Position numbers and translations under genes: made by a program. From Nitrosovibrio tenuis (GTDB taxonomy: Bacteria; Pseudomonadota; Gammaproteobacteria; Burkholderiales; Nitrosomonadaceae), in the NCBI RefSeq assembly GCF_900109785.1, contig NZ_FOBH01000003.1, forward strand, positions 1-64,000: a stretch of 64,000 nucleotides of DNA, read 5' to 3'. Shown piece by piece: positions 4,721-26,998 of the stretch. Position 1 is the stretch's first letter. Each line of letters opens with the position of its first letter. The notes below the pieces were generated by a model, which saw nothing but the letters and a program-made list of their open reading frames with translations, was not told where the DNA came from and searched no databases.

Positions 4721-6041
4721 TCACTATCAGCTAACGATGTTGCAAAGTTACCTGGAGCAGAACATGCAGGAAACTGCGGTGTTCGAGTTCTTCGTTCGCA
4801 AGCTCCCGCGCGAACGAAATTTCCTGGTGGCGGCCGGGCTGGAACAAGCTCTGGATTTCCTTGAGAACCTGAGATTTTCGCCGGAAGAACTGGCCTGGCT
4901 CGCCCCCCGTTTCGGGTCTTCGCTTATTGAGTACCTTGAGCAGTTTCGTTTCGATGGCGATGTTCATGCCATACCGGAGGGAACCATTTTTTTTCCGGAC
5001 GAGCCTATCCTGCGGATAACCGCAGCATTGCCACAAGCCCAACTGATCGAGTCGCGTGTCATGAATCTGCTTCACTTCGAAACCTTGATCGCTACCAAGG
5101 CTGCCCGCTCAGTATTGGCAGCGCCTGGCAAACTGCTGGTGGACTTCGGCATGAGGCGTGCGCATGGTGCGGAAGCGGCGTTGCTCGCTGCGCGGGCAAG
5201 CTATCTCGCCGGATTTTCAGGCTCGGCCACCGTAATGGCCGGAGCTTTGTACGGAATTCCGCTATTCGGTACCATGGCCCACTCCTATATTCAGGCACAT
5301 CGGGACGAAGCGGTTGCTTTTGAGCATTTTGCTCGTTGTCATCCGGATAACGTGGTCTTGCTGATCGATACCTTTGACACGGAGGCGGGCGCGGCCAAGG
5401 TAGTCTCCCTGGGCCGCAAACTTGGTGTACAGGGAATCAGCATCAAGGGTGTCCGGTTAGATAGTGGAGATCTCGGAGCTCATGCCCGCAAGGTACGTCA
5501 CATACTCAACAAAGGCGGATTGGAAAACACGACCATTTTTGCCAGCGGAAACCTGGATGAATACCGGCTGCGGGAACTGTTATCATCCGGGGCGCCAATA
5601 GATGGCTTCGGTGTAGGGACAGCGCTTGACGTGTCCAGCGACGCGCCCTCACTGGACTGTGCCTATAAGTTACAGGAATACGCTGGGAAGGCGCGCCGCA
5701 AACGGTCCGAGGGGAAGGCTACCTGGCCTGGAAAAAAACAGGTATATCGCAAATATAATGGGCCCGGCGGCTGCATGGCTGGGGATATTGTCGCGCTGGA
5801 GGAAAACGACCTTCACGACGGTGAGCCGCTTATGGCTCGGGTCATGCGGGCGGGGAAGCGCATCAATCAGGGTGTCACACTGGATGAAATGCGCATGCGG
5901 ACGCTGGCGAGTTACGATCGCTTGCCTAGGTTCATGACCAGTCTGGATCATGCTCCGGGGTATCCAGTCGAGATTTCCGCAGCATTGAGCGCGTTGGCGA
6001 ACCAGTTGGATGCGGAACAGGCACAAGTTGTATCCGTATAG
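4689..6041 (+). CDS. pncB: Nicotinate phosphoribosyltransferase
   Basis: Makes nicotinate mononucleotide from nicotinate and PRPP with ATP, the step after PncA. The 450-residue protein starts SPLLTDHYQLTMLQSYLEQ, typical of the family N-terminus, and holds FGTMAHSYIQAH (region of the regulatory His), DTFDTEAGA, GVRLDSGDLGAHARKVR and FGVGTALDVSSDAP, which bind the phosphoribosyl group. The start codon lies inside the end of pncA. A PfkB kinase follows 95 bases later. Confidence 0.95.
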   Translation: MNPISSPLLTDHYQLTMLQSYLEQNMQETAVFEFFVRKLPRERNFLVAAGLEQALDFLENLRFSPEELAWLAPRFGSSLIEYLEQFRFDGDVHAIPEGTIFFPDEPILRITAALPQAQLIESRVMNLLHFETLIATKAARSVLAAPGKLLVDFGMRRAHGAEAALLAARASYLAGFSGSATVMAGALYGIPLFGTMAHSYIQAHRDEAVAFEHFARCHPDNVVLLIDTFDTEAGAAKVVSLGRKLGVQGISIKGVRLDSGDLGAHARKVRHILNKGGLENTTIFASGNLDEYRLRELLSSGAPIDGFGVGTALDVSSDAPSLDCAYKLQEYAGKARRKRSEGKATWPGKKQVYRKYNGPGGCMAGDIVALEENDLHDGEPLMARVMRAGKRINQGVTLDEMRMRTLASYDRLPRFMTSLDHAPGYPVEISAALSALANQLDAEQAQVVSV

Positions 6042-7048: not shown

Positions 7049-7164
7049 AACGATGGGTATGTTCTGAAGGCTCGGGCGAGCTGGCGAGCTATTGAGGAAG
7101 CCGGTAAAGCGTTTTCTGTATTGATGATTAGAAGGATTTTGTTTACCTTGAACCGGCTCGATTT

Positions 7165-8010
7165 TTATTCATGCAATTTCTTGAATATATTTCGCAAGTG
7201 ATTCTTGAGCGCGACGGCGCTGATTCCGAGTATGACCGCAATTTCAGAATTGGTTTTGCCGGCCTTGATCCAGTTCATTATCTCCACTTCCGACATGCTT
7301 AATCCTTCGTCTTTCATGTCCGGGGAAGTAGGAGCAGATCGTGGGTCGCAAATTAAGGGATCAACCTGGCCCATCGCGGTATCAAGATAGGGAAGCAGAA
7401 GCTTTAGTGCGTTGAAAGCGGAAGTATCGAGCCTTGTTCTTGAACTGAGTATTATATAAAGGCAATCATGCTGCCCGCGTTTATCGCTGACCCCATGTAT
7501 CAGTATCGATCGCATGCCTCGCAATGCCACACCAAAAGAGCATTGCAGACCATGTTCCTCAAGCAAAAATACCGATTCGCCGCGTCCCAGTGTATAAGGC
7601 ATTTGGCCCAGTGATACCCAGCGGTTGAAAAGCCCTTGAAGCAAGGGCGAAAGCGCGTTCGAATCAGAACACTTCGTTCTTATTCCCAGTAAAGCAGAGG
7701 CAATGTCGTAGCGAATCGGGTTGGAACTGAAATCGCCCCAGGCCCCGAGCATGATCTCGTGAGGCAGGTAGTGTTGGATCTCTCCCTGAAGCCATATGAG
7801 AAGGTCGTAATGTCGACGTACAGCTGTGCCTTCCTCGATAATTCGGGCATACCGTTCGGCATGTTCAGCAGTAAGCGGAAGGTTAAAACCCATTTCAGAT
7901 ATTTCCGTTTCAGATAAAGATGGATCGTTTTTGTTGCGTGACAGTGACCCGCAACCGTGCTGCAGAGTCCATAATTTATCGCAATCTGTCTGGTGTGAAG
8001 CAAGTTCCAT
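7165..8010 (-). CDS. LuxR-type regulator resembling EpsA of PEP-CTERM exopolysaccharide systems
   Basis: A 281-residue protein. The N-terminal two thirds carry RRHYDLLIWLQGEIQHYLPH and a following AWGDF, which I recognise from EpsA-type regulators tied to PEP-CTERM/exosortase polysaccharide clusters. The C-terminal about 60 residues are a LuxR helix-turn-helix (LSMSEVEIMNWIKAGKTNSE then IAVILGISAVALKNHLRNIF). No response-receiver domain is present. No exopolysaccharide, exosortase or PEP-CTERM gene lies in this window, so it is an orphan here. An internal Met (MGFNLPLTAEH) could be the true start. Confidence 0.7.
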   Translation of the reverse strand: MELASHQTDCDKLWTLQHGCGSLSRNKNDPSLSETEISEMGFNLPLTAEHAERYARIIEEGTAVRRHYDLLIWLQGEIQHYLPHEIMLGAWGDFSSNPIRYDIASALLGIRTKCSDSNALSPLLQGLFNRWVSLGQMPYTLGRGESVFLLEEHGLQCSFGVALRGMRSILIHGVSDKRGQHDCLYIILSSRTRLDTSAFNALKLLLPYLDTAMGQVDPLICDPRSAPTSPDMKDEGLSMSEVEIMNWIKAGKTNSEIAVILGISAVALKNHLRNIFKKLHE

Positions 8011-13204: not shown

Positions 13205-14214
13205 TTAACCCCCTAGCGTCGGTTCAACTGCTTCTATCATTTCACAGGAATTTCTTGGATGGGGCAGTGAACGCCTGCCAATGCAGGGGCCGGGTTTCCC
13301 TTGACGGTATCCGAACGGCTCTGCCCGGGTTTCCGGGTGACTCTGTCAGGGTTTCCTATTCAGTTCCTGACCATGAAAGCCCGCTTGGAACAGTTAGAAG
13401 GGGAGGGTCGAGGGCTATCAATCTATCCGGTACCGCAAGTGCGGCGAAACGCCTCATCGCGAGTTCGAAATTCCTACTGGTCAAACGCTCGTCATCCATT
13501 ATAGGTACACTGCCGCGCGAGGCAGTGCGCTATAAAATCTCCATCAGAGCGACTATCCAAAATTGCCATATTGCCATAAGTGGGTGAGTAGAATGTTGCA
13601 CCCCATCCCAGGCACATGATGACACATTGTACAGCGCGTTGACCTGATTGATGAGATGGCCTTGCCTATTGGGGCTGCCCATCGGGCCTGAATTCGGGTC
13701 GACGCTTTTAGTAGAAATTGGTAGAGATTGCGTAGGGGGTTCGTAAGGGATTTCCAAGGGGTTCATAAGGGGTTTCAAAGGGGTTCAAAAGCGGTGCTCT
13801 TAACAGTGGCATCTTTTGAGCGCGGGCAGGCGTCAAACAAAGACCCAAGCGGAGAGATTTTGCAGCGAAATAACGAAGAAAGTGGGCATTTGAGGAACTC
13901 GCTCCCGTCATCGTAATCGAATCCCGCAACGCTGCTCAAGCGTGTCAGCAGCGTGTCGGGTCAAAGCATCACCCTGCATGAGCCATGTGCTTTTGCGTGC
14001 AGCCGGCCGCACGGAGCCATCGGAATTATTCATAAATTCTTACCCCGGCTTGACGCATTTTGATTGCATTATGCATACTCTGCCTCTTCGACTGGGTACC
14101 GCTAAGTCCCTATTCATGCTGATGTTATTCGATTGGCTAATTTACAGAGGTAACGTATCAGGTGTTACACTTCGTCTGATTTAATTTTGGGACAACTCAT
14201 ATCCGAGGTTGAAT
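13205..14214. other. 1-kb intergenic region with G-tract array
   Basis: About 1 kb between two divergent genes. Short open frames occur, but none has a recognisable product. The clearest structure is the G-tract array at 13735-13783, listed separately. The promoter of the ovothiol operon should lie towards the right end. Confidence 0.5.
13731..13795 (+). repeat. Degenerate tandem repeat with five G-tracts
   Basis: G-runs of 5, 3, 4, 4 and 4 occur at 13735, 13747, 13758, 13769 and 13780, spaced by 7-8 bases of TTC/TAA-type sequence (unit about AAGGGGTTC, period 10-12). The pattern fits a possible G-quadruplex on the plus strand. Confidence 0.7.
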
Positions 14215-16398
14215 ATGAATTTGAATGATGCACGAAAAATTATAATGCCCGCCCACTCTGCTTCCGAAGATTCAACGCTGCACGCGTTACCGAAACGGGT
14301 TTTTCCAAGAACCCCTGATCTTTCAGGGAGTAATGTTGAGGCGAAGCGTGAGGAGATACGACGCTATTTTCACGCTACGCTTGATCGCTACGAGCAACTT
14401 TTCGAAACTTTGCAAGGTGAAGAAGCCTATTTCAAAAAACCTATCTCCTTGCGCCATCCCCTCATCTTTTATTTAGGTCATACGTCCACTTTCTTCACTA
14501 ACAAATTGATGCTTGCGGGGCTGATTAAGGAACGAATCAATCCCAAGATGGAATCCATGTTTGCAGTGGGCGTCGACGAAATGAGCTGGGATGACCTGAA
14601 CACTACTCATTATGACTGGCCCTCCGTTGACGAAGTGAGGGCTTACCGTCTCAAGATACGGAACACTGTTGACCGGATCATCAGTGAGGTGCCACTGAGC
14701 TTGCCGATTGGTTGGGACAGCCCCTGGTGGACAATCATAATGGGCATCGAGCATGAGCGCATCCATCTCGAAACGTCCTCAGTGCTGATCCGTCAGCACA
14801 CACTCGAACACGTCAGTGCTCACCCGGCCTGGAGACCTTGCGGAAAATCCGGACAGGCGCCCCAAAATCAGCTAATTCATGTTGCCGAAGGCACCGTATA
14901 TCTTGGTAAGAATAAAACTGATCGCACGTATGGATGGGATAATGAATATGGCAGTCATGTAGCGGAAGTTGCGGCTTTTCAAGCCAGCAAATACCTAGTC
15001 AGCAATCAGGAATTCCTCGCCTTTATCGATGCAAACGGCTACGGCACAGAGAGTTTCTGGGAAGAGGAAGGTCGCGCCTGGCGATGTCATACTCGGGCGG
15101 AATATCCCACTTTCTGGATCAGGCAAGGCGCTGAGTGGCGCTTGCGGCTCATGACCGAAGAAATACCCATGCCGTGGGATTGGCCGGCAGAAGTGAACTA
15201 TCACGAAGCAAAAGCCTTTTGCAACTGGAAAGCGGCAACAAGCGGCCAATCGTTCAGACTGCCAACGGAAGACGAGTGGTATCGACTCTATGACGTAGCC
15301 GGATTATCCGACGTACCTCATACCGAACAAGCCGCAGGGAATATACATTTTGATTATTTTGCCTCGAGCTGCCCGGTCAATGAATTCCCTCAGGGGGAAT
15401 TCTATGACGTCGTGGGGAACGTGTGGCAGTGGACGGAAACGCCGATCTATCCCTTTGAAGGTTTCGATATCCATACGCATTATGACGACTTCACGACGCC
15501 GACTTTCGATGGTCGGCATAATCTCATCAAAGGCGGTTCCTGGATTTCTTGTGGTAATGAGTCGCTGAAGAGCGCGCGCTATGCATTCAGACGTCATTTT
15601 TTTCAGCATGCCGGATTTCGCTACGTGGTGGGCGATACAGCAGTCGTCCAGCATGATTCCCACTACGAAACCGACAAGCTGCTCTCCGAGTACGCTGAAT
15701 TCCATTATGGTGACAGATATTTTGACGTGCCAAACTTTCCAAAGTCACTGGCTGAACTGGCTATTGCCGCCATGGGCGGCAAACCATGCCGCAAAGCGCT
15801 CGATCTTGGCTGTGCTTCCGGGCGTGCAACTTTTGAGCTGGCACGGCGGTTCGATGAAGTGACCGGTATCGATTTCTCGGCCCGTTTCATCGGACAAGGT
15901 GTCCAGCTTGCCGGAACGGGCGTGTTGCGCTATACGCTGACGGACGAGGGTGATCTTGTTGTTTATAGAGAGCGTACGCTGACGGGACTCGGCCTGGATG
16001 CTGTCAGGCACAAAGTAGCGTTTTATCAGGGCGATGCATGTAATCTCAAGCCCCTCTTTACCGGTTATGATCTTATCCTGGCAGCCAATCTGATTGACCG
16101 TCTTTATGATCCCGCCAAGCTGCTCACATCCATTCACGAGCGACTTAACCTGGGGGGGATTTTGCTGTTGGCTTCGCCTTATACCTGGCTGGAGGAACAT
16201 ACCAAGCGGGAAGCCTGGATTGGTGGGTTCAAGCGTGATGGCGAAAGCTTTGGAACGCTGGACGGCCTGAACGAGGTTCTGGGTGATCGTTTCAAACTGA
16301 TTCAGGGGCCGAAGGAAGTGCCGTTTGTCATCCGTGAGACCCGGCGGAAATTTCAGCATACGCTATCAGAAGTGACAATCTGGGAGCGAGTTGCTTGA
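14215..16398 (+). CDS. ovoA: OvoA: 5-histidylcysteine sulfoxide synthase with 4-mercaptohistidine N-methyltransferase domain
   Basis: OvoA is the iron enzyme that couples cysteine to histidine C5 with O2, and its C-terminal domain methylates the resulting thiohistidine. The 727-residue protein shows the full three-part build: a DinB-like N-terminus with His in PLIFYLGHTSTFF and the HERIHLE motif (near residue 180) for iron; a central formylglycine-enzyme-like domain (about 220-500, including QASKYLVSNQEFLAFIDANG and the C-terminal YAFRRHFFQHAGFRYV); and a SAM methyltransferase with KALDLGCASGRATFELARRF. EgtB of the ergothioneine route lacks this last domain, which favours OvoA. CCGAGG precedes ATG 14215; a TTG two codons earlier is an alternative. 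The next gene overlaps by four bases. Confidence 0.93.
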   Translation: MNLNDARKIIMPAHSASEDSTLHALPKRVFPRTPDLSGSNVEAKREEIRRYFHATLDRYEQLFETLQGEEAYFKKPISLRHPLIFYLGHTSTFFTNKLMLAGLIKERINPKMESMFAVGVDEMSWDDLNTTHYDWPSVDEVRAYRLKIRNTVDRIISEVPLSLPIGWDSPWWTIIMGIEHERIHLETSSVLIRQHTLEHVSAHPAWRPCGKSGQAPQNQLIHVAEGTVYLGKNKTDRTYGWDNEYGSHVAEVAAFQASKYLVSNQEFLAFIDANGYGTESFWEEEGRAWRCHTRAEYPTFWIRQGAEWRLRLMTEEIPMPWDWPAEVNYHEAKAFCNWKAATSGQSFRLPTEDEWYRLYDVAGLSDVPHTEQAAGNIHFDYFASSCPVNEFPQGEFYDVVGNVWQWTETPIYPFEGFDIHTHYDDFTTPTFDGRHNLIKGGSWISCGNESLKSARYAFRRHFFQHAGFRYVVGDTAVVQHDSHYETDKLLSEYAEFHYGDRYFDVPNFPKSLAELAIAAMGGKPCRKALDLGCASGRATFELARRFDEVTGIDFSARFIGQGVQLAGTGVLRYTLTDEGDLVVYRERTLTGLGLDAVRHKVAFYQGDACNLKPLFTGYDLILAANLIDRLYDPAKLLTSIHERLNLGGILLLASPYTWLEEHTKREAWIGGFKRDGESFGTLDGLNEVLGDRFKLIQGPKEVPFVIRETRRKFQHTLSEVTIWERVA

Positions 16399-17639
16399 GC
16401 TCAGGCCAGGTTTGCCGATATGATTTCAACAGCATAATCAGTCGTACCGGTACCGCCAGCCTCAAATACGACGGCCGCCAGGGCATGTTCGGCGCCCCGG
16501 AGGTTGTTCCTCTATGGGTAGCAGACATGGATTTCGCTGCGCCGCCGGCCGTGACCCAGGCGCTTGCCAGACGTGCCGCCCATCCTGTGTATGGGTATAC
16601 GATCTATCCCGACAGTTTGTACGAATCCTTGATAGCCTGGTTGAGGCAGCGCCATGGCTGGGAAGTACACCGCGACTGGATCGTGATGTCCCCTGGTGTA
16701 GTGCCATCGCTGCATGCCGCTGTAATGACGTTCGCCGGGGAAGGCGCACCGGTTATCGTACAACCGCCGGTATATTTTCCTTTTTTTTCGTCCGTCACCA
16801 GCACTGGCAGAGAACTGATACATAATCCATTGCGCCTGGGGAAAAGCGGGTATACGATCGACTTCGACCATTTCGAGTATTGCGCAGAGAGAGCCCGGTT
16901 GTTACTGCTATGTTCGCCGCATAACCCGGTTGGCAGGGTGTGGAACAGGCAGGAACTGGGCCATATCCTTCGGATCGCCGGAAAGTACGATCTGGTGATC
17001 TTCTCCGACGAAATCCATGCCGACCTGGTCTACCCCGGGAATAAACATCATGTGCTTTCGATGATGGCGCAAGCGGACCCCGGCAATGTCGCCGTCATTA
17101 CCGCTATCGCGCCCAGCAAGACATTCAATATTCCCGGACTCAACCTTTCCGCTCTTATCGTGCCCGATGCCGGGTGTCGAAAAAAATTGATGCGGACATT
17201 CGACTCCATGCATGTCAGTGCATCCAATCCCTTTAGTATTGCGGCGTTCGAAGCAGCCTACAGGGAGGGCGGGGGGTGGTTGGATGAGTTGCTGGTTTAT
17301 CTTGCGTGCACACGGGATCACGTTCGGGATTATCTTGCTGCCCACCTCCCGGAAATCGGGCTCGTTCATTCGGAAGGCACATATCTGCTCTGGCTCGACT
17401 GCCGCGCGCTGAAGCGTGAATGGGGAATAAATGATGCACAGCTCAGGCATTTCTTCATTCATGAAGCTGGCGTAGGCATGAGCCCCGGCACGCTGTTCGG
17501 CGAGGCGGGCAGCGGCTTCATGCGTATGAATATCGGCGCACCGCGCCAGGTCATCGAAACGGCGCTGGAAAATATCAGGAAGGCAAAGCTGGGAATGGCT
17601 TCACCTCAGGGCTTGAGGAAGCTTCGGCCTGATGCATGA
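16395..17639 (+). CDS. PLP-dependent C-S lyase, probable OvoB (5-histidylcysteine sulfoxide lyase)
   Basis: A 414-residue fold-type I PLP enzyme of the MalY/PatB cystathionine beta-lyase type. Marks are VPLWVADMDFAAPPAV near the N-terminus, LLLCSPHNPVGRVW, IFSDEIHADLVY and the PLP lysine in APSKTFNIPGLNLS. OvoB, described in Erwinia tasmaniensis, is such a lyase and releases 5-thiohistidine from OvoA's sulfoxide product. Placement directly after ovoA with a four-base TTGA overlap (a TTG start) supports that role; a general C-S lyase cannot be excluded on sequence alone. No ATG close enough exists to replace the TTG. Confidence 0.82.
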   Translation: MSSGQVCRYDFNSIISRTGTASLKYDGRQGMFGAPEVVPLWVADMDFAAPPAVTQALARRAAHPVYGYTIYPDSLYESLIAWLRQRHGWEVHRDWIVMSPGVVPSLHAAVMTFAGEGAPVIVQPPVYFPFFSSVTSTGRELIHNPLRLGKSGYTIDFDHFEYCAERARLLLLCSPHNPVGRVWNRQELGHILRIAGKYDLVIFSDEIHADLVYPGNKHHVLSMMAQADPGNVAVITAIAPSKTFNIPGLNLSALIVPDAGCRKKLMRTFDSMHVSASNPFSIAAFEAAYREGGGWLDELLVYLACTRDHVRDYLAAHLPEIGLVHSEGTYLLWLDCRALKREWGINDAQLRHFFIHEAGVGMSPGTLFGEAGSGFMRMNIGAPRQVIETALENIRKAKLGMASPQGLRKLRPDA

Positions 17640-18541
17640 ATGCGGCGTCGCGTTCCCGTAGCGGCTGGATTGCGGTTTTTGCCACGTTGTGCATCTGGAC
17701 CGGTTTCATCCTCGTCACCCGCCATGGGGCTACCGGTACGCTTACCAGTTGGGATATTGCAACGCTGCGTTTCGGCGTAGGCGCGCTGATTGCCGTCGTT
17801 CTACTGCCGCGCATCACGCTGCCGCCGCTCAAGGTGATCGCGTTATTTTCGTGTTTTGGCGGCATCGGTTACGCTATTGTCGTGTATGCCGCATTCCGTA
17901 TGTCACCTGCTGCCCATGCTTCTGTTCTGCTGCCCGGCACGCTGCCTTTTGCGACTGCGGTCATAGCATGGCTGTGGTTTGGCCAGAAGCCATTGCCGTC
18001 CTACCGCACCGCTCTTGTCGTTGTCGTTGCCGGGGTCATACTGACGGCGGCTGATTCCTTTTCACGAGGTCCTCAGCTTACCCGCACGCAAATAACCGGC
18101 GACCTGCTTTTTCTATGCGGCTCATCGTCGTGGGCGGTGTTTACACTGCTGCTTGGCCGTTATCCTGTGCAGCCGCTTGCCGCAACGGTAGCCACTACAT
18201 TGGGAAGTGCCGTGGTTTACCTTCCTATCTGGTGGTTATTTCTGCCCACCAAGCTCACACAAGCGCCTATCGGCGAAATCATCACGCAAGCACTATATCA
18301 GGGTGTACTGGTGGTCTTTGTCGCAATGCTGCTCTATAGCTTCGCAGTAAGTCGCCTGGGCTCCCACATCGTAGCTTTGCAGATGGCCTTTGTGCCCGTC
18401 ATTTCGGCGCTCGCGGCTGTGCCTTTGCTGGACGAGCAGATATCTTTGGCTACCTGGGGAGGACTGCTCGCGGTGACCGTAGGGGCGGTATTAGGCGGGC
18501 GCGCATCTCATGGAAAGAGAGCGGAGTATGAATGCAAGTAA
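17636..18541 (+). CDS. EamA/DMT-family transporter
   Basis: A 301-residue inner membrane protein with about ten hydrophobic helices in the two-repeat EamA layout: first half from WIAVFATLCIWTGFILVTRH, second half from LLFLCGSSSWAVFTLLLGRY. The conserved proline-rich helix of the second EamA repeat appears around VALQMAFVPVISALAAVPLL. It overlaps the C-S lyase gene by four bases (ATGA), so it is the third gene of the ovothiol operon. Export of ovothiol or an intermediate is an inference from position only; the family carries many small metabolites. Confidence 0.85.
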   Translation: MNAASRSRSGWIAVFATLCIWTGFILVTRHGATGTLTSWDIATLRFGVGALIAVVLLPRITLPPLKVIALFSCFGGIGYAIVVYAAFRMSPAAHASVLLPGTLPFATAVIAWLWFGQKPLPSYRTALVVVVAGVILTAADSFSRGPQLTRTQITGDLLFLCGSSSWAVFTLLLGRYPVQPLAATVATTLGSAVVYLPIWWLFLPTKLTQAPIGEIITQALYQGVLVVFVAMLLYSFAVSRLGSHIVALQMAFVPVISALAAVPLLDEQISLATWGGLLAVTVGAVLGGRASHGKRAEYECK

Positions 18542-18621
18542 TATATATCCTTCGATAAGTGCATAATGTATTCGCCGGAACCGTTGGGCTAGCCCTGCGC
18601 GATTGCACCATTCGCGTCGGC

Positions 18622-18680
18622 GCCTTTTGCGCGTCCTTCCGGCAAAGCCGCTGTCGTGCGCACGCGCGCGTTATTCAGAC
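18622..18680 (+). repeat. Dispersed GC-rich motif, copy 2
   Basis: Gap-free match to 1271-1329 (about 43 of 59 identical by hand count). It ends TTATTCAGAC, 33 bases ahead of the ABC exporter start, nearly the same distance as copy 3 has to purB. Confidence 0.5.
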
Positions 18681-18713
18681 GTTGCCTCAATATACCTGAC
18701 GCTCTACACTGAA

Positions 18714-21050
18714 ATGATGCAAGACTCCGAGTTTTCCCTGGCTTCCCCAGCTGTTGCCTTGCGAGGCATGTCGCCGGCCATGCCACCCGTATGGGCCAAC
18801 CGCGTTGAATCAGAGCTTATGGATGGAGAACAGGTGTTGGCCTGGCTTGAAACTGATCTCAGTGCCCAACTCTATTTCGTACCGGGGTTTGTGCTTGTTA
18901 CGAGCAAGCGTTTATTGGCCACGACAGAGAGGGAAGGCGTTTGGCAGGGATGGTTCTATCGGCCCGGAATAAGGCTTGTGCGCCATGACCACCTGGGGGT
19001 AGGAAGCCTCGAGCTTCTTGATGAGAATTCGCTGCTTGCCCGTTGGCGCTACACGCTCGGCAATGATGTAGCAACTGGCCGCCTGATCGAGCATTTTATG
19101 CAGCAGCTCGACTATCAGCTCACCGGGGAGCCGCCTCCCGCGCCTGTTCTTTCTTTATGTCCCAAATGCCAGAGGGTACTCGATGCTCCGTTATCGCCTG
19201 GCCAGGAAGAATGCGCGGTATGCAGCAGCGAAGCGGCTACGCCGCCCTCGACATGGACACTGTTTCGCTTATGGCGTTTCGCCAAGCCCTACAAGGGTCG
19301 GCTGCTAGCCGGTTTTCTCCTGACATTGGGCAGTACCGCCGCCACAATGGTGCCGCCGTATTTAACCATGCCGCTGATGGATAACGTGCTCATCCCCTAT
19401 CAGAATGGCAAACCGATCGATGTCGGTCTCGTCACATTCTATCTGACCGGCCTGCTTGGCGCGGCATTAGTGGCGTGGGTGTTGGGATGGTCGCGAACTT
19501 ATCTGTTGGCGCTGGTTTCAGAACGTATCGGCGCCGATCTGCGCACTGCTACCTACGAGCACCTTCTCAAACTTTCGCAACAATACTTTGGAGGTAAGCG
19601 CACGGGTGACCTGATGGCTCGCATTGGCTCGGAAACTGATCGCATCAATGTTTTTATATCGGTGCATCTGCTGGATTTTGCAACCGATGTGCTGATGATC
19701 GTCATGACTGCCGTAATCTTGGTTTCTATCCAACCCTGGCTTGCGCTCGTGACCCTGTTGCCCCTGCCGGTCATAGGCTGGCTGATCCACCTGGTACGCG
19801 ACAGATTGCGCACCGGATTCGAAAAGGCTGACCGCGTCTGGGCCGAAGTGACTAATGTGCTTGCCGATACCATCCCCGGCATGCGTGTGGTCAAGGCCTT
19901 TGCACAGGAAAAGCGTGAAGCGGCGCGCTTCCGTAAGGCTAACCAACACAACCTCGAAGTTAACGACCGGGTCAATAAAGTATGGTCGCTTTTTACGCCA
20001 ACGGTGACACTGCTTACTGAAGTCGGGCTCCTGGTGGTGTGGGTTTTTGGTATCTGGCTCGTATCGAACGATGAAATCACGGTTGGCGTGCTCACCGCAT
20101 TTCTCGCCTATATCAGCCGTTTCTATCTAAGGCTTGATTCGATGAGCCGCATCGTTTCGTTCACGCAGAAAGCAGCGGCCGGCACCAAGCGAATTTTTGA
20201 CATTCTTGACCATATTTCCAGTGTGCCGGAACCGGTAACCCCCGTACATCTGCCGGTTGTCGAGGGTCGTATAGAGTTACGCGGTGTTGGATTCCGTTAC
20301 GGTACCCGCACTGTGACCAGGGATATCAGCGTCACCATCCAACCGGGCGAGATGATCGGTCTTGTTGGCCATAGCGGCTCAGGGAAGAGTACTATTGTCA
20401 ACCTGATCTGCCGCTTCTATGATGTTACCGAAGGAGCGATATTACTGGATGGGATCGACATTCGCTCATTGCCGGTCGCCGAATACCGCAAGAACATCGG
20501 TCTGGTGCTCCAGGAGCCTTTCCTGTTTTTCGGGACGATCGCCGAAAACATCGCCTATGGCAGTCCCAATGCGAAGCGGGAGGAGATTATTGCAGCGGCC
20601 CGCGCTGCTCACGCCCACGAGTTCATCCTGCGCCTCCCGCATGGGTATGATTCTTTGGTTGGCGAGCGTGGTCAGGCTCTTTCGGGTGGCGAACGCCAGC
20701 GTATCTCCATTGCACGCGCGCTACTTATCGATCCACGCATCCTGATCCTCGACGAAGCCACCTCCTCCGTTGATACCACCACGGAGAAAGAAATTCAGAA
20801 GGCTCTTGAAAATTTGGTGCAAGGCCGGACTACTATCGCGATCGCCCACCGTTTATCCACACTGCGGGACGCCACCCGGTTGATCGTGCTCGATCGTGGC
20901 AGCATTGTTGAGATTGGCAACCATCATGAGCTGATGGCGCGGGAAGGCCACTATTATCGCCTCTATCAGGCTCAGGCGCGCAACGTGGATACCGAGGATG
21001 ATTTGCGAGGCTCAAGGCTTGAGCATAAAGCGGCGGGGGTTCGCCAATGA
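18714..21050 (+). CDS. Cyanophycin-locus ABC exporter with N-terminal PH-like domain and zinc ribbon
   Basis: A 778-residue half-transporter fused to its own ATPase. From ATG 18714: residues about 30-140 look like a bacterial PH-like fold (FVLVTSKRLLATTEREGVWQ, then GVGSLELLDENSLLARWRYT); a zinc ribbon follows with CPKC and CAVC near 149-170; the type I exporter membrane domain spans about 195-485; the ATPase has Walker A GHSGSGKST (near 551), signature LSGGERQRISIARAL, Walker B LILDEATSS and an H-loop IAHRLS. NCBI families place such exporters with cyanophycin genes, and cphA genes follow. The substrate is unknown. TTG 18603 in the same frame is a possible longer start, but the dispersed motif lies inside that extension. 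Confidence 0.85.
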   Translation: MMQDSEFSLASPAVALRGMSPAMPPVWANRVESELMDGEQVLAWLETDLSAQLYFVPGFVLVTSKRLLATTEREGVWQGWFYRPGIRLVRHDHLGVGSLELLDENSLLARWRYTLGNDVATGRLIEHFMQQLDYQLTGEPPPAPVLSLCPKCQRVLDAPLSPGQEECAVCSSEAATPPSTWTLFRLWRFAKPYKGRLLAGFLLTLGSTAATMVPPYLTMPLMDNVLIPYQNGKPIDVGLVTFYLTGLLGAALVAWVLGWSRTYLLALVSERIGADLRTATYEHLLKLSQQYFGGKRTGDLMARIGSETDRINVFISVHLLDFATDVLMIVMTAVILVSIQPWLALVTLLPLPVIGWLIHLVRDRLRTGFEKADRVWAEVTNVLADTIPGMRVVKAFAQEKREAARFRKANQHNLEVNDRVNKVWSLFTPTVTLLTEVGLLVVWVFGIWLVSNDEITVGVLTAFLAYISRFYLRLDSMSRIVSFTQKAAAGTKRIFDILDHISSVPEPVTPVHLPVVEGRIELRGVGFRYGTRTVTRDISVTIQPGEMIGLVGHSGSGKSTIVNLICRFYDVTEGAILLDGIDIRSLPVAEYRKNIGLVLQEPFLFFGTIAENIAYGSPNAKREEIIAAARAAHAHEFILRLPHGYDSLVGERGQALSGGERQRISIARALLIDPRILILDEATSSVDTTTEKEIQKALENLVQGRTTIAIAHRLSTLRDATRLIVLDRGSIVEIGNHHELMAREGHYYRLYQAQARNVDTEDDLRGSRLEHKAAGVRQ

Positions 21051-21520
21051 TCGATCAGCCCGGTTACCTGCTAAGCCAAAACGCCTTCGGACGCCTGGTG
21101 TTCACCGGGAAGGATGGTGAGGCGCACGAGGGTATAGTCCCGGTCCGCGCATTTCCTATTACGGCCCCCGATACCGGCATCGCGCTGGTCGACCAGCATG
21201 GTCATGAGTTGGCGTGGATAGACCGGCTGAGCGATCTTCCGGACGCGCTGCGCACATTGATTGAAAGAAATTTGATTAGTCGGGAATTTGGCCCTGAAAT
21301 CAAACGCATCCAGAAAGTTTCCAGTTTTGTCACGCCGAGCATCTGGCATGTGGAAACTGACCGTGGCGAGACAGCTTTCATACTCAAGGGTGAGGAAGAT
21401 ATTCGTCGGCTCACCGCTCCAACGTTGCTGATCGCGGACAGCCACGGTATTAATTTTCTCATTCGCGATCGTTTTGCCCTCGATCATCACAGCCGTAAAA
21501 TTCTGGACCGCTTCCTATAA
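21047..21520 (+). CDS. DUF1854 family protein
   Basis: A 157-residue soluble protein of the DUF1854 family, found beside cyanophycin ABC exporters. Visible parts are the N-terminal GRLVFTGKDGEAHEGIVPVR and the C-terminal DSHGINFLIRDRFALDHHSR. It overlaps the exporter gene by four bases (ATGA), so the two are made together and probably work together. The biochemical function is not known. I placed the family by context and the VPVRAFPI/DSHG character. Confidence 0.8.
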   Translation: MIDQPGYLLSQNAFGRLVFTGKDGEAHEGIVPVRAFPITAPDTGIALVDQHGHELAWIDRLSDLPDALRTLIERNLISREFGPEIKRIQKVSSFVTPSIWHVETDRGETAFILKGEEDIRRLTAPTLLIADSHGINFLIRDRFALDHHSRKILDRFL

Positions 21521-22133
21521 AGCCAATCTCCGGTTTGCTGCCCGACAACTGCAGAGGGCGGGATCTGGTCTGAGCCTTGACGGCTATCGAAGCTGACACC
21601 GTTTATTGCCTATGAGCTCTGTCGCTACACGGCGACAGATAATATGTAGGGTTTTCAACGGGTTGTCGCTCATCCGGAAATCCATGTTAACAAGCGACGA
21701 CACCTTGTCTTCGGTTTCCTTTTGAAGTTTTGCTAAGTCATTGCTTTATTGGGTGAATTTTTCTGGCATGACATATGCTTGAGCTTTTTCGATATGCGCT
21801 ATTTTCTGAATGTAGCCCGGGTCCTTAATGGGCTAACGCCTTAATTTTTTTGGATAGGTGCACGGCCGTAATAGCGAACGCGAGTTTGCCAATTGTCCGG
21901 CAAAAGGATCACTACTAGCTCGATAAAACAAGTTCAGATATCTAGTAGTAAGTAGACAGGCCAATCTAGGGGTGGTCTGGCTTGAGCGCGCGCAAAGGGT
22001 ATTCAATTTGAATATGTGACGACTTAAGCTGCCGGTGCGCAATCCATTTTTGAGAAGCAAATTTATGACGAGGCTGTAAACCAATTCATCTGAGCCGCGT
22101 TAATTCCACTTCGTCTACTCTGTACGACCATGT
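21521..22133. other. Intergenic region before the cyanophycin synthetases
   Basis: About 610 bases. A perfect 7-bp hairpin (CTGTCGC/GCGACAG, loop of 6) lies at 21619-21638, just after the DUF1854 gene, but without a T-run. The minus-strand open frame at 21833-22084 has no recognisable product. The AT-rich stretch at 21700-22130 is the likely promoter region of the synthetase pair. Confidence 0.4.
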
Positions 22134-24434
22134 ATGCTAGCCTGCGCCAACGCGAATACTGATCATATCAATAGAAAAGATCTCAAATTTCTTGAGGTTC
22201 GCCATCTGAATGGTCCGAATATGTGGACCTACTACCCTGTTCTCGAAGCCGTTGTCGACATCGGAGAACTTGAAGACTTTCCGTCCAATGTAATTCCCGG
22301 TTATTACGATCGGCTGTCATCATGGCTGCCATCTCTGATTGAACATCGCTGCAGTTATGAAGAGCGCGGCGGCTTCCTGCGCCGACTGGAGGAGGGAACA
22401 TGGCCGGGTCATATTCTCGAACATGTAACCCTTGAATTGCAAAATCTAGCGGGTATGCCCGCAGGCTTTGGCAGGGCTCGTGAAACCTCCATACGCGGCG
22501 TCTACAAAGTGGTGGTCAGCGCCTGGGATGAACATATTGCATATAGCGCCTTATTGGCGGCGCGTGAACTCATGCTATCGGCAATGGAGTTGCAACCCGG
22601 TAACAAAACCTATGATGTCAAGGGTGCCATTGAGCGCCTGCGCGATATGGTCGATTCGCTCTGGTTGGGCCCTTCTACGGCATGTATTGTTGATGCCGCC
22701 GCAAACCGCAAAATTCCGGCCATCCGCCTTCTTGCCAAAGGTAATCTTGTACAACTCGGCTATGGCGCTTGCAGCAGACGTATTTGGACAGCCGAAACCG
22801 ACTGCACCCCGGCGATTGCCGAGAGTATCTCGCGTGACAAGGATCTCACCAAGACACTGCTCCGGTCTTGCGGAGTTCCTGTCCCTGAAGGTCGTATGGT
22901 CACTAGCGCGGAAAACGCCTGGCAGGCTGCCCAGGATATTGGTTTGCCGGTCGTCGTTAAACCCTGCGATGGCAACCATGGACGGGGTGTTTTTATTGAG
23001 CTGACAACGCAGCAGGAGGTTGAATCGGCTTATCGTGTAGCAGTCGAAGAGGGCGATGGTGTATTGGTTGAACGTTTTATCCCTGGTACCGAGCACCGGC
23101 TGCTGGTTGTTGGCGGCCGCCTAGTTGCTGCTAGCCGGGGTGATTCGGTATCCGTTACCGGCGACGGTAAATCAACCATTGCGGCGCTGATTAGCGACCA
23201 GATCAATTCGGATCCGCGTCGCGGAACGACCGAGCATCATCCACTTAATACAATTAGCCTGGACAGTGCAGCACGGATGGAGATAGCCCGTCAGGGCTTC
23301 ACCAGTAACTCGATCCCCACTTTAAATCAGAAAGTTCTGATTCAGCGCAACGGTAATCATGCATTCGACGTTACCGATGAAGTGCACCCAAGCATCGCGG
23401 CAACCGCCGCGCTAGCCGCGCGTATTGTCGGCCTGGATATTGCAGGTATCGATCTTGTCGCTACCGATATCTCGCGCCCTCTCGCTGAACAGGGAGGCGC
23501 GATCGTCGAAGTCAACGCCGGCCCTGGTCTGCTGATGCATATCAAGCCCGCCGTTGGCATCCCCCGCCCGGTTGGTGAAGCCATTGTCGATCATCTCTTT
23601 CCCAGTGATGACGATGGCCGTATTCCCGTTGTAGGGATTACCGGCAGCTATGGCAAAACTACAGTAGCACGCCTTGTAGCCCGGTTGTTGATCCTTTCCG
23701 GGAAGCACACGGGCCTTGCCTGCAGTGACGGGTTCTATCTCGACCACAGGCAAGTCCAGAAGGGTGATCACGCCAAATGGGAAGCGGCCAACCGCATCTT
23801 GAGGAACCGCTCGGTTGAAGCAGCGGTGTTTGAGAACGGAAGTGACATCATGCTCAGCGAAGGACTGGCGTACGACCGTTGCCAAGTCGGCGTCGTAACT
23901 AATGTTGAGTTAACCCGGCATTATGGGCGCTACTATATCGAAACTCAGGAGCAGGTTTTCAAGGTATTGCGCACCCAGGTAGACGTAGTGTTGCCGGGCG
24001 GTACGGCCGTGCTCAATGCCCGGGAGCCGATGCTCGTGGAAATGGCCGCGTTATGCGACGGCGAAGTCATCTATTTCAGCCTTGATCCCGACTTGTCTTC
24101 CGTCGTCGAGCATCGCGCACAAGGTTCGGGTAGCGTCAAGGGTAAGCGCGTCGTAATCGTTCGCGGCGGCGAAATTCTGCTTGCCACCGGCTCGGATGAG
24201 GTATCGCTCGCCAGCCTGGCATCCATTCCACTGCCCGGCGGCGCGCATGCGGTTCTAGAGATCGAAAATCTTTTAGCAGCGGTCGGCGCCGCCTGGGCGC
24301 TTGGTATTCCGCCTGCTCTTATACGTGCTGGAATCGAAACCTCCGCTCCATTTAAGCTACAAGCATCCAGTTGCATGAACGACATATGTCAAGCTTCCGG
24401 ATCCAACGAGAAACGCAGGAGAAACCATCAATGA
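22134..24434 (+). CDS. Cyanophycin synthetase-like protein lacking the Mur-ligase C-terminal lobe (CphA2-like)
   Basis: A 766-residue relative of cyanophycin synthetase. The N-terminal domain (LEVRHLNGPNMWTYYPVLEA) and ATP-grasp domain (about 235-485; VVVKPCDGNHGRGV, VLVERFIPGTEHRLLV, AIVEVNAGPGLLMH) look intact. The Mur-type domain has GSYGKTT where the next gene has GTNGKTT, and ENGSDIMLSEG where the next gene has ETARGGILREG. The protein stops shortly after LIRAGIETSAPF, where the partner continues with about 120 more residues of ligase lobe. This resembles CphA2, which joins beta-Asp-Arg dipeptides with the ATP-grasp domain alone. It overlaps cphA by four bases. Confidence 0.87.
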   Translation: MLACANANTDHINRKDLKFLEVRHLNGPNMWTYYPVLEAVVDIGELEDFPSNVIPGYYDRLSSWLPSLIEHRCSYEERGGFLRRLEEGTWPGHILEHVTLELQNLAGMPAGFGRARETSIRGVYKVVVSAWDEHIAYSALLAARELMLSAMELQPGNKTYDVKGAIERLRDMVDSLWLGPSTACIVDAAANRKIPAIRLLAKGNLVQLGYGACSRRIWTAETDCTPAIAESISRDKDLTKTLLRSCGVPVPEGRMVTSAENAWQAAQDIGLPVVVKPCDGNHGRGVFIELTTQQEVESAYRVAVEEGDGVLVERFIPGTEHRLLVVGGRLVAASRGDSVSVTGDGKSTIAALISDQINSDPRRGTTEHHPLNTISLDSAARMEIARQGFTSNSIPTLNQKVLIQRNGNHAFDVTDEVHPSIAATAALAARIVGLDIAGIDLVATDISRPLAEQGGAIVEVNAGPGLLMHIKPAVGIPRPVGEAIVDHLFPSDDDGRIPVVGITGSYGKTTVARLVARLLILSGKHTGLACSDGFYLDHRQVQKGDHAKWEAANRILRNRSVEAAVFENGSDIMLSEGLAYDRCQVGVVTNVELTRHYGRYYIETQEQVFKVLRTQVDVVLPGGTAVLNAREPMLVEMAALCDGEVIYFSLDPDLSSVVEHRAQGSGSVKGKRVVIVRGGEILLATGSDEVSLASLASIPLPGGAHAVLEIENLLAAVGAAWALGIPPALIRAGIETSAPFKLQASSCMNDICQASGSNEKRRRNHQ

Positions 24435-26998
24435 GAGTATCACGCATCCGCGCACTGCGCGGCCCTAATTTGTGGAGTCAGCGTACAAGCATGGAGGCGA
24501 TCGTTTCCTGTGGTGAAACGGAGCTTGCCATTGACGAACTGCCCGCTTTCGCGGCCCGGCTGCGTGCACGCTTTCCGGAAATTTCCTTGACGCAGCCAAT
24601 TGGCCGTTACCGGGCTGTGGTGCATGCTTTCGAGCGTGCTGCCCTTGCTCTGCAAGTGCAGGCTGGGTGCCCGGTAACCTTCAGCCGCTTGGTGAAAACG
24701 CTGGAACCCGGCACTTACCAGGTTATTGTCGAGTATAGTGAAGAGCTGGTTGGCCGGCTCGCTCTTGAGCTTTCAGAAACGTTATGTCGTTCAGCACTCG
24801 ATGACGGCCCGTTTGATCTGGCTGATGCGTTGGGCCGCTTGCGCGAACTGAATGAAGACATACGCCTTGGGCCGAGCACCAGTGCAATTGTCGAGGCTGC
24901 CATTGCGCGCGGTATTCCCTTCCGCCGGTTGACCAACGGCAGCCTGGTCCAATTTGGATGGGGTAGCAGGCAATGCCGCATACAGGCGGCCGAAACCTCT
25001 CTAACGAGTGTCATTGCCGAGTCGGTCGCGCAGGATAAGGAGCTGACTAGGATGCTGCTGCGGACCGCCGGTATTCCGGTTCCCTGTGGTCGGCCGGTAG
25101 CGAATGCCGAGGATGCATGGGCCGCTACTCTCGAAATCGGCGGTCCGGTTGTCGTTAAGCCGCGAGACGGCAATCAGGGCAAGGGCGTAGGCGTCAATCT
25201 TACGAGCCGCGAGCAAGTGGAATCAGCTTACGCGGTAGCGGCTAAAATCAGCGGTGCAGTCATAGTCGAGCGTTATATTCCCGGCCATGACCATCGTATA
25301 TTGGTGGTCGGCAACAAGCTGGTCGCTGCTGCGCGGCGCGACCCGCCTCAAGTAACCGGTGATGGCGTACACAGTATCAGTCAACTGGTGGCGCAGATCA
25401 ACAGTGACCCGCGGCGCGGTGAGGGGCACGCTACTCTATTAACGAAAATCAGTCTTGATGAAATTGTACTTGCTCATTTAGCAACCCAAGGCTTGACCAA
25501 AGAATCGATACCGGCCAAAAATATGCGTGTTTACCTGCGCAATAATGCCAATCTTTCTACTGGCGGAACGGCTACCGATGTCACTGATGACGTTCATCCC
25601 GAGCTTGCCGCACGCGTAGTGACGGCCGCGCAAATGACCGGCCTCGACATTTGCGGTGTCGATGTCGTTTGCGACAGCGTATTGCATCCCCTCGAAGATC
25701 AAGGCGGCGGCGTCATCGAAATTAACGCCACCCCGGGTTTGCGCATGCATCTGCAGCCTTCGTTCGGCAAAGGCCGCGCGGTGGGCGAGGCAATTATCGC
25801 CAATATGTTCAAGGATGGAGAGGATGCGCGCATCCCGGTTATCGCGGTAACAGGCACCAATGGTAAAACCACTACAGTCCGTCTGATCGCCAGCATTCTT
25901 GGTTGCAGCGGACTGCGTGTCGGGATGACCAACACCGACGGGGTCTATGTCAATGACCAGCGCATCGATAGTGGCGATTGTAGCGGCCCCAAGAGTGCAA
26001 AAAACGTCCTTTTTCATCCTGATGTCGATGCCGCGGTACTGGAGACGGCGCGTGGCGGGATACTGCGTGAAGGGCTGGGCTTCGACCGGTGCCACGTTGC
26101 AGTGGTCACTAATATTGGCATGGGCGACCATCTCGGCCTTTCACACATCAATACGGTTGAGGATCTGGCTGCAGTCAAACGAGTCGTCGTGCAAAATGTT
26201 ATGCCCGATACCGGTATTGCCGTGCTTAACGCGGCGGACCCGCTGGTGGCCGGCATGGCTAGCCACTGTCCCGGCTCGGTTACCTTCTTTGCTCGCGATG
26301 CCGATCACCCGGTAATAGCCAAGCATCGTTCGCAACGCAAACGCGTTGTCTATCTTGACGGTGATTCGATTGTCGCCTCCGAAGGCGGTGTCGAGCATCG
26401 GATATCGTTAATTGGAATCCCCGTTACGCAAAATGGAACGGTCGCATTTCAGATCGAGAACGCGATGGCCGCTACTGGCGCGGGCTGGGCGCTGGGCCTC
26501 GATTGGGAGATCATCCGCGCCGGTCTGGCAAGTTTTGTGAATGACTTTCAGACGGCACCAGGCCGTTTCAATCTTTTCAAGCATCGTGGCGCTACGCTAA
26601 TTGCCGATTATGGTCATAACGCGGACGCGATCCGCGAACTTGTGCGTGCAATCGATAATATGCCTGCCAAATGGCGTTCAGTCGCTATCAGCGGTACAGG
26701 CGACAGGCGTGATGAAGACATCCGCAGGCAGACCGAGATACTGGGGGACGCTTTTGACAAGGTGGTGATTTACGAGGGCCCGGACCAACGCGGCCGTCCC
26801 GATGGGGAAGTGCTTGACCTGCTGCGACAGGGTCTGGAGAACGCGAAGCGTACCCGTGAAGTCAAGGAAATCTACGGCGAACTCGTAGCCATCGATGCTG
26901 CCTTCGCCGGCCTGAAGGCTGGCGAGCTATGCCTTATCCTTATCAATCAAGTGGAAGAGTCGCTCAGATACATTACCAACAGGGTAACCGCCGGCTGA
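24431..26998 (+). CDS. cphA: Cyanophycin synthetase
   Basis: Builds cyanophycin, the poly-Asp backbone with Arg side chains, using ATP. From ATG 24431 (AGGAG about 10 bases upstream) it is 855 residues: N-domain MRVSRIRALRGPNLWSQ; ATP-grasp about 215-470 with VVVKPRDGNQGKGVGV, VIVERYIPGHDHRILVV and VIEINATPGLRMH for Asp addition; Mur-ligase domain with GTNGKTTT near residue 474, ETARGGILREGLGF and a complete C-terminal lobe (PGRFNLF, LIADYGHNADAIRELV, SGTGDRRDED) for Arg addition. All catalytic elements seem present. It overlaps the shorter paralogue (ATGA). Confidence 0.95.
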   Translation: MRVSRIRALRGPNLWSQRTSMEAIVSCGETELAIDELPAFAARLRARFPEISLTQPIGRYRAVVHAFERAALALQVQAGCPVTFSRLVKTLEPGTYQVIVEYSEELVGRLALELSETLCRSALDDGPFDLADALGRLRELNEDIRLGPSTSAIVEAAIARGIPFRRLTNGSLVQFGWGSRQCRIQAAETSLTSVIAESVAQDKELTRMLLRTAGIPVPCGRPVANAEDAWAATLEIGGPVVVKPRDGNQGKGVGVNLTSREQVESAYAVAAKISGAVIVERYIPGHDHRILVVGNKLVAAARRDPPQVTGDGVHSISQLVAQINSDPRRGEGHATLLTKISLDEIVLAHLATQGLTKESIPAKNMRVYLRNNANLSTGGTATDVTDDVHPELAARVVTAAQMTGLDICGVDVVCDSVLHPLEDQGGGVIEINATPGLRMHLQPSFGKGRAVGEAIIANMFKDGEDARIPVIAVTGTNGKTTTVRLIASILGCSGLRVGMTNTDGVYVNDQRIDSGDCSGPKSAKNVLFHPDVDAAVLETARGGILREGLGFDRCHVAVVTNIGMGDHLGLSHINTVEDLAAVKRVVVQNVMPDTGIAVLNAADPLVAGMASHCPGSVTFFARDADHPVIAKHRSQRKRVVYLDGDSIVASEGGVEHRISLIGIPVTQNGTVAFQIENAMAATGAGWALGLDWEIIRAGLASFVNDFQTAPGRFNLFKHRGATLIADYGHNADAIRELVRAIDNMPAKWRSVAISGTGDRRDEDIRRQTEILGDAFDKVVIYEGPDQRGRPDGEVLDLLRQGLENAKRTREVKEIYGELVAIDAAFAGLKAGELCLILINQVEESLRYITNRVTAG

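Follow-up and report, generated by a model that had tools for sequence, protein, structure and literature searches.

A coupled ovoA-ovoB gene pair predicted to make ovothiol A in the ammonia oxidizer Nitrosovibrio tenuis, and the EamA gene that stands behind it in one genus of the family

The subject of this analysis is a stretch of 64,000 nucleotides (the window) that lies at the start of its contig (contig C13) in the 3.1 Mb genome of Nitrosovibrio tenuis, a member of the Nitrosomonadaceae, and in particular three consecutive genes in it: ovoA, an ovoB-like gene and a gene for a transporter of the EamA family (Table 1). The first of these is taken to begin with the ATG at 14215; an in-frame TTG lies at 14209 (open reading frame, ORF, 14209/14215-16398). 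The initial annotation, which was made from the DNA letters without database searches, had described a three-domain OvoA with a HERIHLE motif and an S-adenosylmethionine (SAM) domain, a MalY/PatB-type lyase dependent on pyridoxal phosphate (PLP) and an EamA transporter, all on one strand and joined by four-base TTGA and ATGA overlaps, and each of these gene calls, together with both overlaps, was borne out by the comparisons given below.

Table 1. Features of the ovo locus and its downstream neighbors, in window coordinates
Feature	Position	Strand	Evidence
ovoA (5-histidylcysteine sulfoxide synthase with C-terminal 5-thiohistidine N-methyltransferase)	14215..16398	+	TIGR04344, TIGR04345, 8khq, HERIHLE
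TTGA overlap (ovoA stop and ovoB start)	16395..16398	+	GGGAG about 8 nt upstream
ovoB-like PatB/MalY-family PLP C-S lyase, TTG start	16395..17639	+	TIGR04350, PDB 6qp3, PSKTFN
ATGA overlap, ovoB / EamA gene	17636..17639	+	ORF coordinates
EamA/DMT-family transporter gene	17636..18541	+	PF00892 (two stretches), distribution
Cyanophycin-associated ABC transporter, outside the pathway	ORF 18603-21050	+	NF052233 over cut-off; syntenic in the genus
DUF1854 protein, outside the pathway	21047-21520	+	NF052234 over cut-off; syntenic in the genus

The product of the first gene scored over the cut-offs of both OvoA models, with 701.5 bits against TIGR04344 (the N-terminal sulfoxide synthase; cut-off 400) and 338.7 bits against TIGR04345 (the 5-thiohistidine methyltransferase; cut-off 170), and it contained the DinB_2, FGE-sulfatase and methyltransferase domains of Pfam. 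Its best solved relative was the full-length OvoA 8khq, which we take to come from Methyloversatilis (938.6 bits, residues 36-726), and the tyrosine of IHTHYDDF (residue 423), presumably the catalytic one, aligned with the same residue in that structure. The iron-binding HX3HXE motif was present as HERIHLE at residues 180-186, with a spacing equal to that of His170, His174 and Glu176 as quoted in PMC9103826. Judged from these matches, the gene is a full ovoA, and its product is predicted to catalyze the formation of 5-histidylcysteine sulfoxide from histidine and cysteine.

The second gene scored over the cut-off of the PatB C-S lyase model TIGR04350 (509.3 bits, cut-off 340); its best match in the PDB was PatB 6qp3 (E = 2.7e-94), and the PSKTFN motif, whose lysine we assume to bind PLP, was found at residue 240. 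An OvoB has been characterized from Erwinia tasmaniensis. We read the ovoA loci of 40 of the 115 other Nitrosomonadaceae genomes with ovoA over the cut-off, namely the 22 remaining members of the genus and 18 genomes from elsewhere in the family, and a PatB lyase stood directly behind ovoA in all 40, as it did in 29 of 29 short loci of other genomes (partly the same genomes). The codon overlapping the ovoA stop was in frame with the lyase, and open to it, in 39 of the 40 loci (37 TTG, one GTG and one CTG), the single locus with an out-of-frame codon being L072, and GGGAG or GGGAA lay upstream of this codon in these 39 loci, although the same letters are also coding. Because the pair was kept in every locus and the overlap in frame in all except one, we regard the TTGA-coupled ovoAB as the ordinary operon of the family. 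The annotated claim of a complete and translationally coupled OvoA-OvoB pathway is thus supported by the model scores, by the match to 8khq, and by the conservation of both linkage and overlap.

The explanation that we favor, and hold to be likely, is that ovoAB is a two-gene coupled ovothiol A operon in an ammonia oxidizer and that the EamA protein most likely has a general export role that does not involve ovothiol. The two genes are present in the order and arrangement described, and we infer their activity and product from them. Following the chemistry published for these families, OvoA would couple cysteine and the C5 of histidine into a sulfoxide, OvoB would convert the sulfoxide, its predicted substrate from gene context, to 5-thiohistidine, pyruvate and ammonia (the OvoB step is stated in PMC10903977), and the C-terminal domain of OvoA would methylate the ring nitrogen to give ovothiol A. 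The EamA gene would have been inserted behind ovoB in or near the ancestor of the genus and later lost in some lineages, one of which retains a relic; in the window genome it may be co-transcribed with ovoAB, and its product would most likely export an amino acid or another metabolite. The window shares the three-domain OvoA and the PatB-type PLP lyase with the bacterial ovothiol A pathway represented by the 8khq OvoA and OvoB, and differs in that its host has amoA and that its ovoA and ovoB overlap by TTGA.

The amoA gene of the host was matched by PF02461 (E = 3.6e-125), and ammonia monooxygenase (AMO) was found in 67 of the 125 family genomes, among members of all four genera; we presume that most of the gaps arose when a repeated operon was lost in assembly. 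ovoA was over the cut-off in 116 of the 125 genomes and in 97 of the 99 good ones (completeness 90% or more, contamination 5% or less). Two of the nine genomes lacking it at that cut-off, G056 and G070, are of good quality, and a recheck of four ovoA-negative genomes at E up to 1e-8 recovered a 3' piece in G086 and no ovoA in G056, G070 or G017. A dedicated survey of bacterial ovothiol genes reportedly exists, and the family-wide occurrence of ovoA may already stand in its tables. Outside the family, ovoA was found in 42 of at most 386 genomes of an order sample, 17 of at most 367 of a class sample and 22 of at most 396 of a phylum sample (roughly 5-11%). Several other families of the order gave repeated ovoA matches, and common descent, not nitrification, may therefore explain the pattern in this family. 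The idea that ovoA is a general mark of bearers of AMO or particulate methane monooxygenase (pMMO) was not supported, since only one of the nine AMO-bearing genomes of the class sample outside the family (G482) had it over the cut-off. That 2.3 Mb genome carries ovoA (locus L091) and two AMO/pMMO-type genes, with a DctM-type transporter gene in the same orientation directly 5' of ovoA.

The near-universal presence of a complete ovoAB in a family of ammonia oxidizers offers a testable case for the bacterial use of ovothiol. A wider proposal, which we put forward tentatively and consider unlikely, is that ovothiol would be a core low-molecular-weight thiol of ammonia-oxidizing Nitrosomonadaceae, kept almost invariably because it deals with the reactive nitrogen or oxygen species that arise from ammonia oxidation, and that one genus added a transporter that may tune its export. 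The host genome also holds an egtB-egtD pair and a second egtB, all over their cut-offs (L002:1198-3481 and L003:1291-2616), so the host probably makes ergothioneine as well.

The third gene encodes a protein of about 300 amino acids matched by PF00892 in two stretches, as is typical of EamA/DMT transporters, and 15 of 16 copies in the genus have 9-10 hydrophobic segments. It is set apart from these transporters in that it met no curated NCBIfam exporter model, its only matches (TIGR00950 and PRK11272, amino-acid/metabolite exporters) being far under cut-off, and that a search of solved structures by sequence gave no match at E up to 1. With the window protein as query and a threshold of E up to 1e-25, the gene was found in 17 of the 125 family genomes, all of them among the 23 of the window's genus, and in none of the 102 family genomes outside it. 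There are accordingly 99 family genomes with ovoA over the cut-off and no EamA (116 against 17), and six genomes of the genus keep ovoAB without it. Within the stretches covered, the gene order in the genus is Slp - (hydrolase) - ovoA - ovoB - (EamA) - cyanophycin ABC - DUF1854. The ABC gene follows in all 16 other EamA-bearing genomes and in five of the six without EamA, the sixth (L086) having no ABC match in the stretch read. Since this whole block is conserved, general synteny explains the adjacency of EamA and ovoB sufficiently. A tie between EamA and the cyanophycin ABC gene was likewise unsupported, as in five of the six genomes that have no EamA the ABC gene comes after ovoB and no further conserved gene separates the two.

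The four-base ATGA overlap between ovoB and EamA is unique to the window genome; from the ovoB stop to the aligned (predicted) EamA start there are 44-362 nt in the 16 other genomes. Between ovoB and the ABC gene of L085, at 5678-5764 in ovoA-forward orientation, a remnant of 29 residues resembles a decayed EamA gene (31.2 bits, where the highest score among 300 codon shuffles was 26.6) and points to loss of the gene. In L083 the EamA frame (7058-7959, ovoA-forward orientation) is broken near residue 240, which may be a pseudogene or a sequencing error.

Fourteen close relatives of the window EamA, 58-74% identical to it, were found elsewhere by a scan of our genome collection, on contigs labeled Rhodocyclaceae, Rhodocyclales, Sulfuritalea, beta proteobacterium, Gallionella and Rugosibacter. 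None had ovoA or ovoB in the available flank, which for several contigs amounts to a few hundred to a few thousand bases. Of the 14 genomes, which are draft metagenome-assembled genomes, ten had no ovoA over the cut-off and four had it on a different contig; among these four, the Gallionella genome (G134) carries a coupled ovoAB (L124) on one contig and EamA on another. Among ten proteins scanned from the neighborhoods of these homologs, three were PurT and others were a LysR regulator, an aldolase and an oxidoreductase. The window protein is 64-74% identical to the homologs of the ten genomes without ovoA (68-74% for nine of them) and 70-78% identical to those of its own genus, and these values do not point to a shift of specificity within the genus. 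In a tree of EamA proteins, for which the outgroup was too distant to place the root and one partial row (L036) was dropped beforehand, the 13 outside rows grouped together with support, separate from the 17 rows of the genus.

We also read 80 ovoA loci outside the family. These comprised 40 of the 42 ovoA over the cut-off in the order sample (two contig fragments were left out), the 36 found in the class and phylum samples, and four from EamA-bearing genomes. Searched with a profile built on the window's EamA subfamily, they yielded one gene (L160, E = 1.2e-8) and one doubtful ORF of 483 residues (L159, E = 9e-4). EamA-family genes within 3 kb of ovoA were seen at four of the 80 loci (L143, L144 and L146, from one genus, and L160), all on the opposite strand and not of the window's kind; the screen of membrane genes relied on hydropathy and on Pfam for ten listed membrane ORFs, nine of them outside the family, so that more EamA genes may exist.

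Several observations weigh against the favored explanation. EamA stands directly behind ovoB and on the same strand in all 17 genomes that hold it, its frame is open back into ovoB in L076 and L077, and in a simple scan 15 of the 16 ovoB-EamA intergenic stretches of the other genomes had no terminator-like site and the remaining one a weak site, so that co-transcription of ovoB and EamA is possible. The OvoA tree, from which L048, L056, L057 and L058 were left out (nearly empty rows; early stop in the translation), gives no strong count of EamA losses. The presence of EamA requires four changes on it (shuffled mean 4.7), the well supported branches force only two, and 136 of 500 label shuffles fared equally well. 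On the enzyme side, OvoB belongs to a lyase family of broad specificity.

The alternative that fares best, though we think it unlikely, is export by EamA of some related metabolite, for instance an amino acid such as cysteine or histidine, which would ease the stress of precursors or by-products of ovothiol or cyanophycin metabolism. Its position between ovoAB and the cyanophycin genes, and the kind of exporter named by its two sub-threshold NCBIfam matches, agree with this. Both sets of neighbors persist without EamA, however, and none of the ten proteins scanned beside its homologs belonged to an ovothiol or cyanophycin system.

We consider it very unlikely that the genus recruited EamA specifically to export ovothiol, 5-thiohistidine or the sulfoxide intermediate. 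The initial annotation had proposed the gene as the missing ovothiol exporter or as a guard against a toxic intermediate, and had named as refuting a lack of EamA adjacency in all other ovoA-bearing genomes. Taken strictly, that refutation does not apply, since 16 relatives in the genus share the adjacency; elsewhere in the family EamA was not found (E up to 1e-25). The ATGA overlap is real in the window and is not conserved. The constant position behind ovoB, the overlap and the scarcity of terminator-like sites would all suit an exporter of this kind. Distribution, synteny, loss and the context of the homologs nevertheless led us to reject it, for within the family the gene was found in one genus, it is missing from six of the 23 genomes there, one of which keeps a relic, the block is syntenic whether or not EamA is there, and most of the close homologs come from draft genomes in which no ovoA over the cut-off was found. 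EamA is therefore not a gene that occurs with ovoA and never without it, and its linkage to ovoA does not go beyond general synteny, the four opposite-strand genes outside the family being of another kind. This reading, if correct, would have given a name to an ovothiol transporter; most of what favored it falls away with the survey. In the literature searched we found no ovothiol transporter and no paper combining ovothiol with EamA, with ammonia-oxidizing or with Nitrosomonas. PMC12631010 describes a comparable case, in which an accessory gene was likewise proposed from the neighborhood of ovoA, leading to a 5-thiohistidine N-acetyltransferase (5THNAT); there the association spans more than 50 genomes and was assayed, and three other neighbors in that cluster were judged not to be linked to 5-thiohistidine, whereas the putative link of EamA to ovothiol is seen in one genus.

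A further alternative, which we regard as highly improbable, is that a housekeeping cystathionine beta-lyase stands behind ovoA by chance and that the pathway is incomplete. In its favor, the best PDB match is a PatB named cystathionine beta-lyase, OvoB is called a broad-specificity lyase in PMC12631010, and 29 of the 80 outside loci had no match to the OvoB profile in the stretch read (three of these end at a contig or stretch limit). An aminotransferase-fold enzyme matching the profile lies just 3' of ovoA in 47 of the 80, in 38 of them with at least 200 bits, and four more loci have a match of over 200 bits farther away (three about 0.7 kb downstream, one upstream). This makes 42 of 80 loci with a PatB-type lyase of at least 200 bits in the neighborhood of ovoA, which, together with the unbroken pairing in the family, argues against chance. 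Outside the family the linkage of ovoA to a PatB lyase is common, not general. PMC9103826 cites an earlier survey of OvoA and OvoB across the Proteobacteria.

That the product is another 5-thiohistidine (for example an acetylated one) or a selenium analog in place of ovothiol A is extremely improbable: such variants exist (5THNAT, as described in PMC12631010) and OvsA/OvsM structures are among the solved relatives, but the N-terminal domain of the first gene matched OvoA far better than SenA models or OvsA chains, its fused methyltransferase was over the ovothiol cut-off (though OvsM and OvoM chains scored alike, 249.2 and 241.2 bits), and none of four flanking genes scanned was an acetyltransferase.

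Six of the 80 outside loci (L088, L093, L103, L120, L122 and L123), which come from two other families of bacteria, carry behind ovoA a PLP enzyme of the aminotransferase fold but not of the PatB type, at a spacing of about -18 to +35 nt. These enzymes are about 19-31% identical to the window OvoB over partial alignments; for the three that were scanned the nearest models were GntC, VioD and PRK07324, all under cut-off. They are candidate alternatives for the lyase step of OvoB and may represent a second solution to it. At another locus, L154, an O-methyltransferase-like protein (PF00891; L154:6851-7993) begins 32 nt after ovoA, with no PatB lyase in the stretch read.

A scan of the window for promoters and terminators gave counts near those of shuffled sequence (6 against 4.5, standard deviation 2.4, and 6 against 6.3, standard deviation 2.2). 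Downstream of EamA the cyanophycin block occupies 18603-26998 and consists of the ABC transporter, the DUF1854 protein and two overlapping cyanophycin synthetase ORFs, the first of which is over the subfamily cut-off and under the equivalog cut-off.

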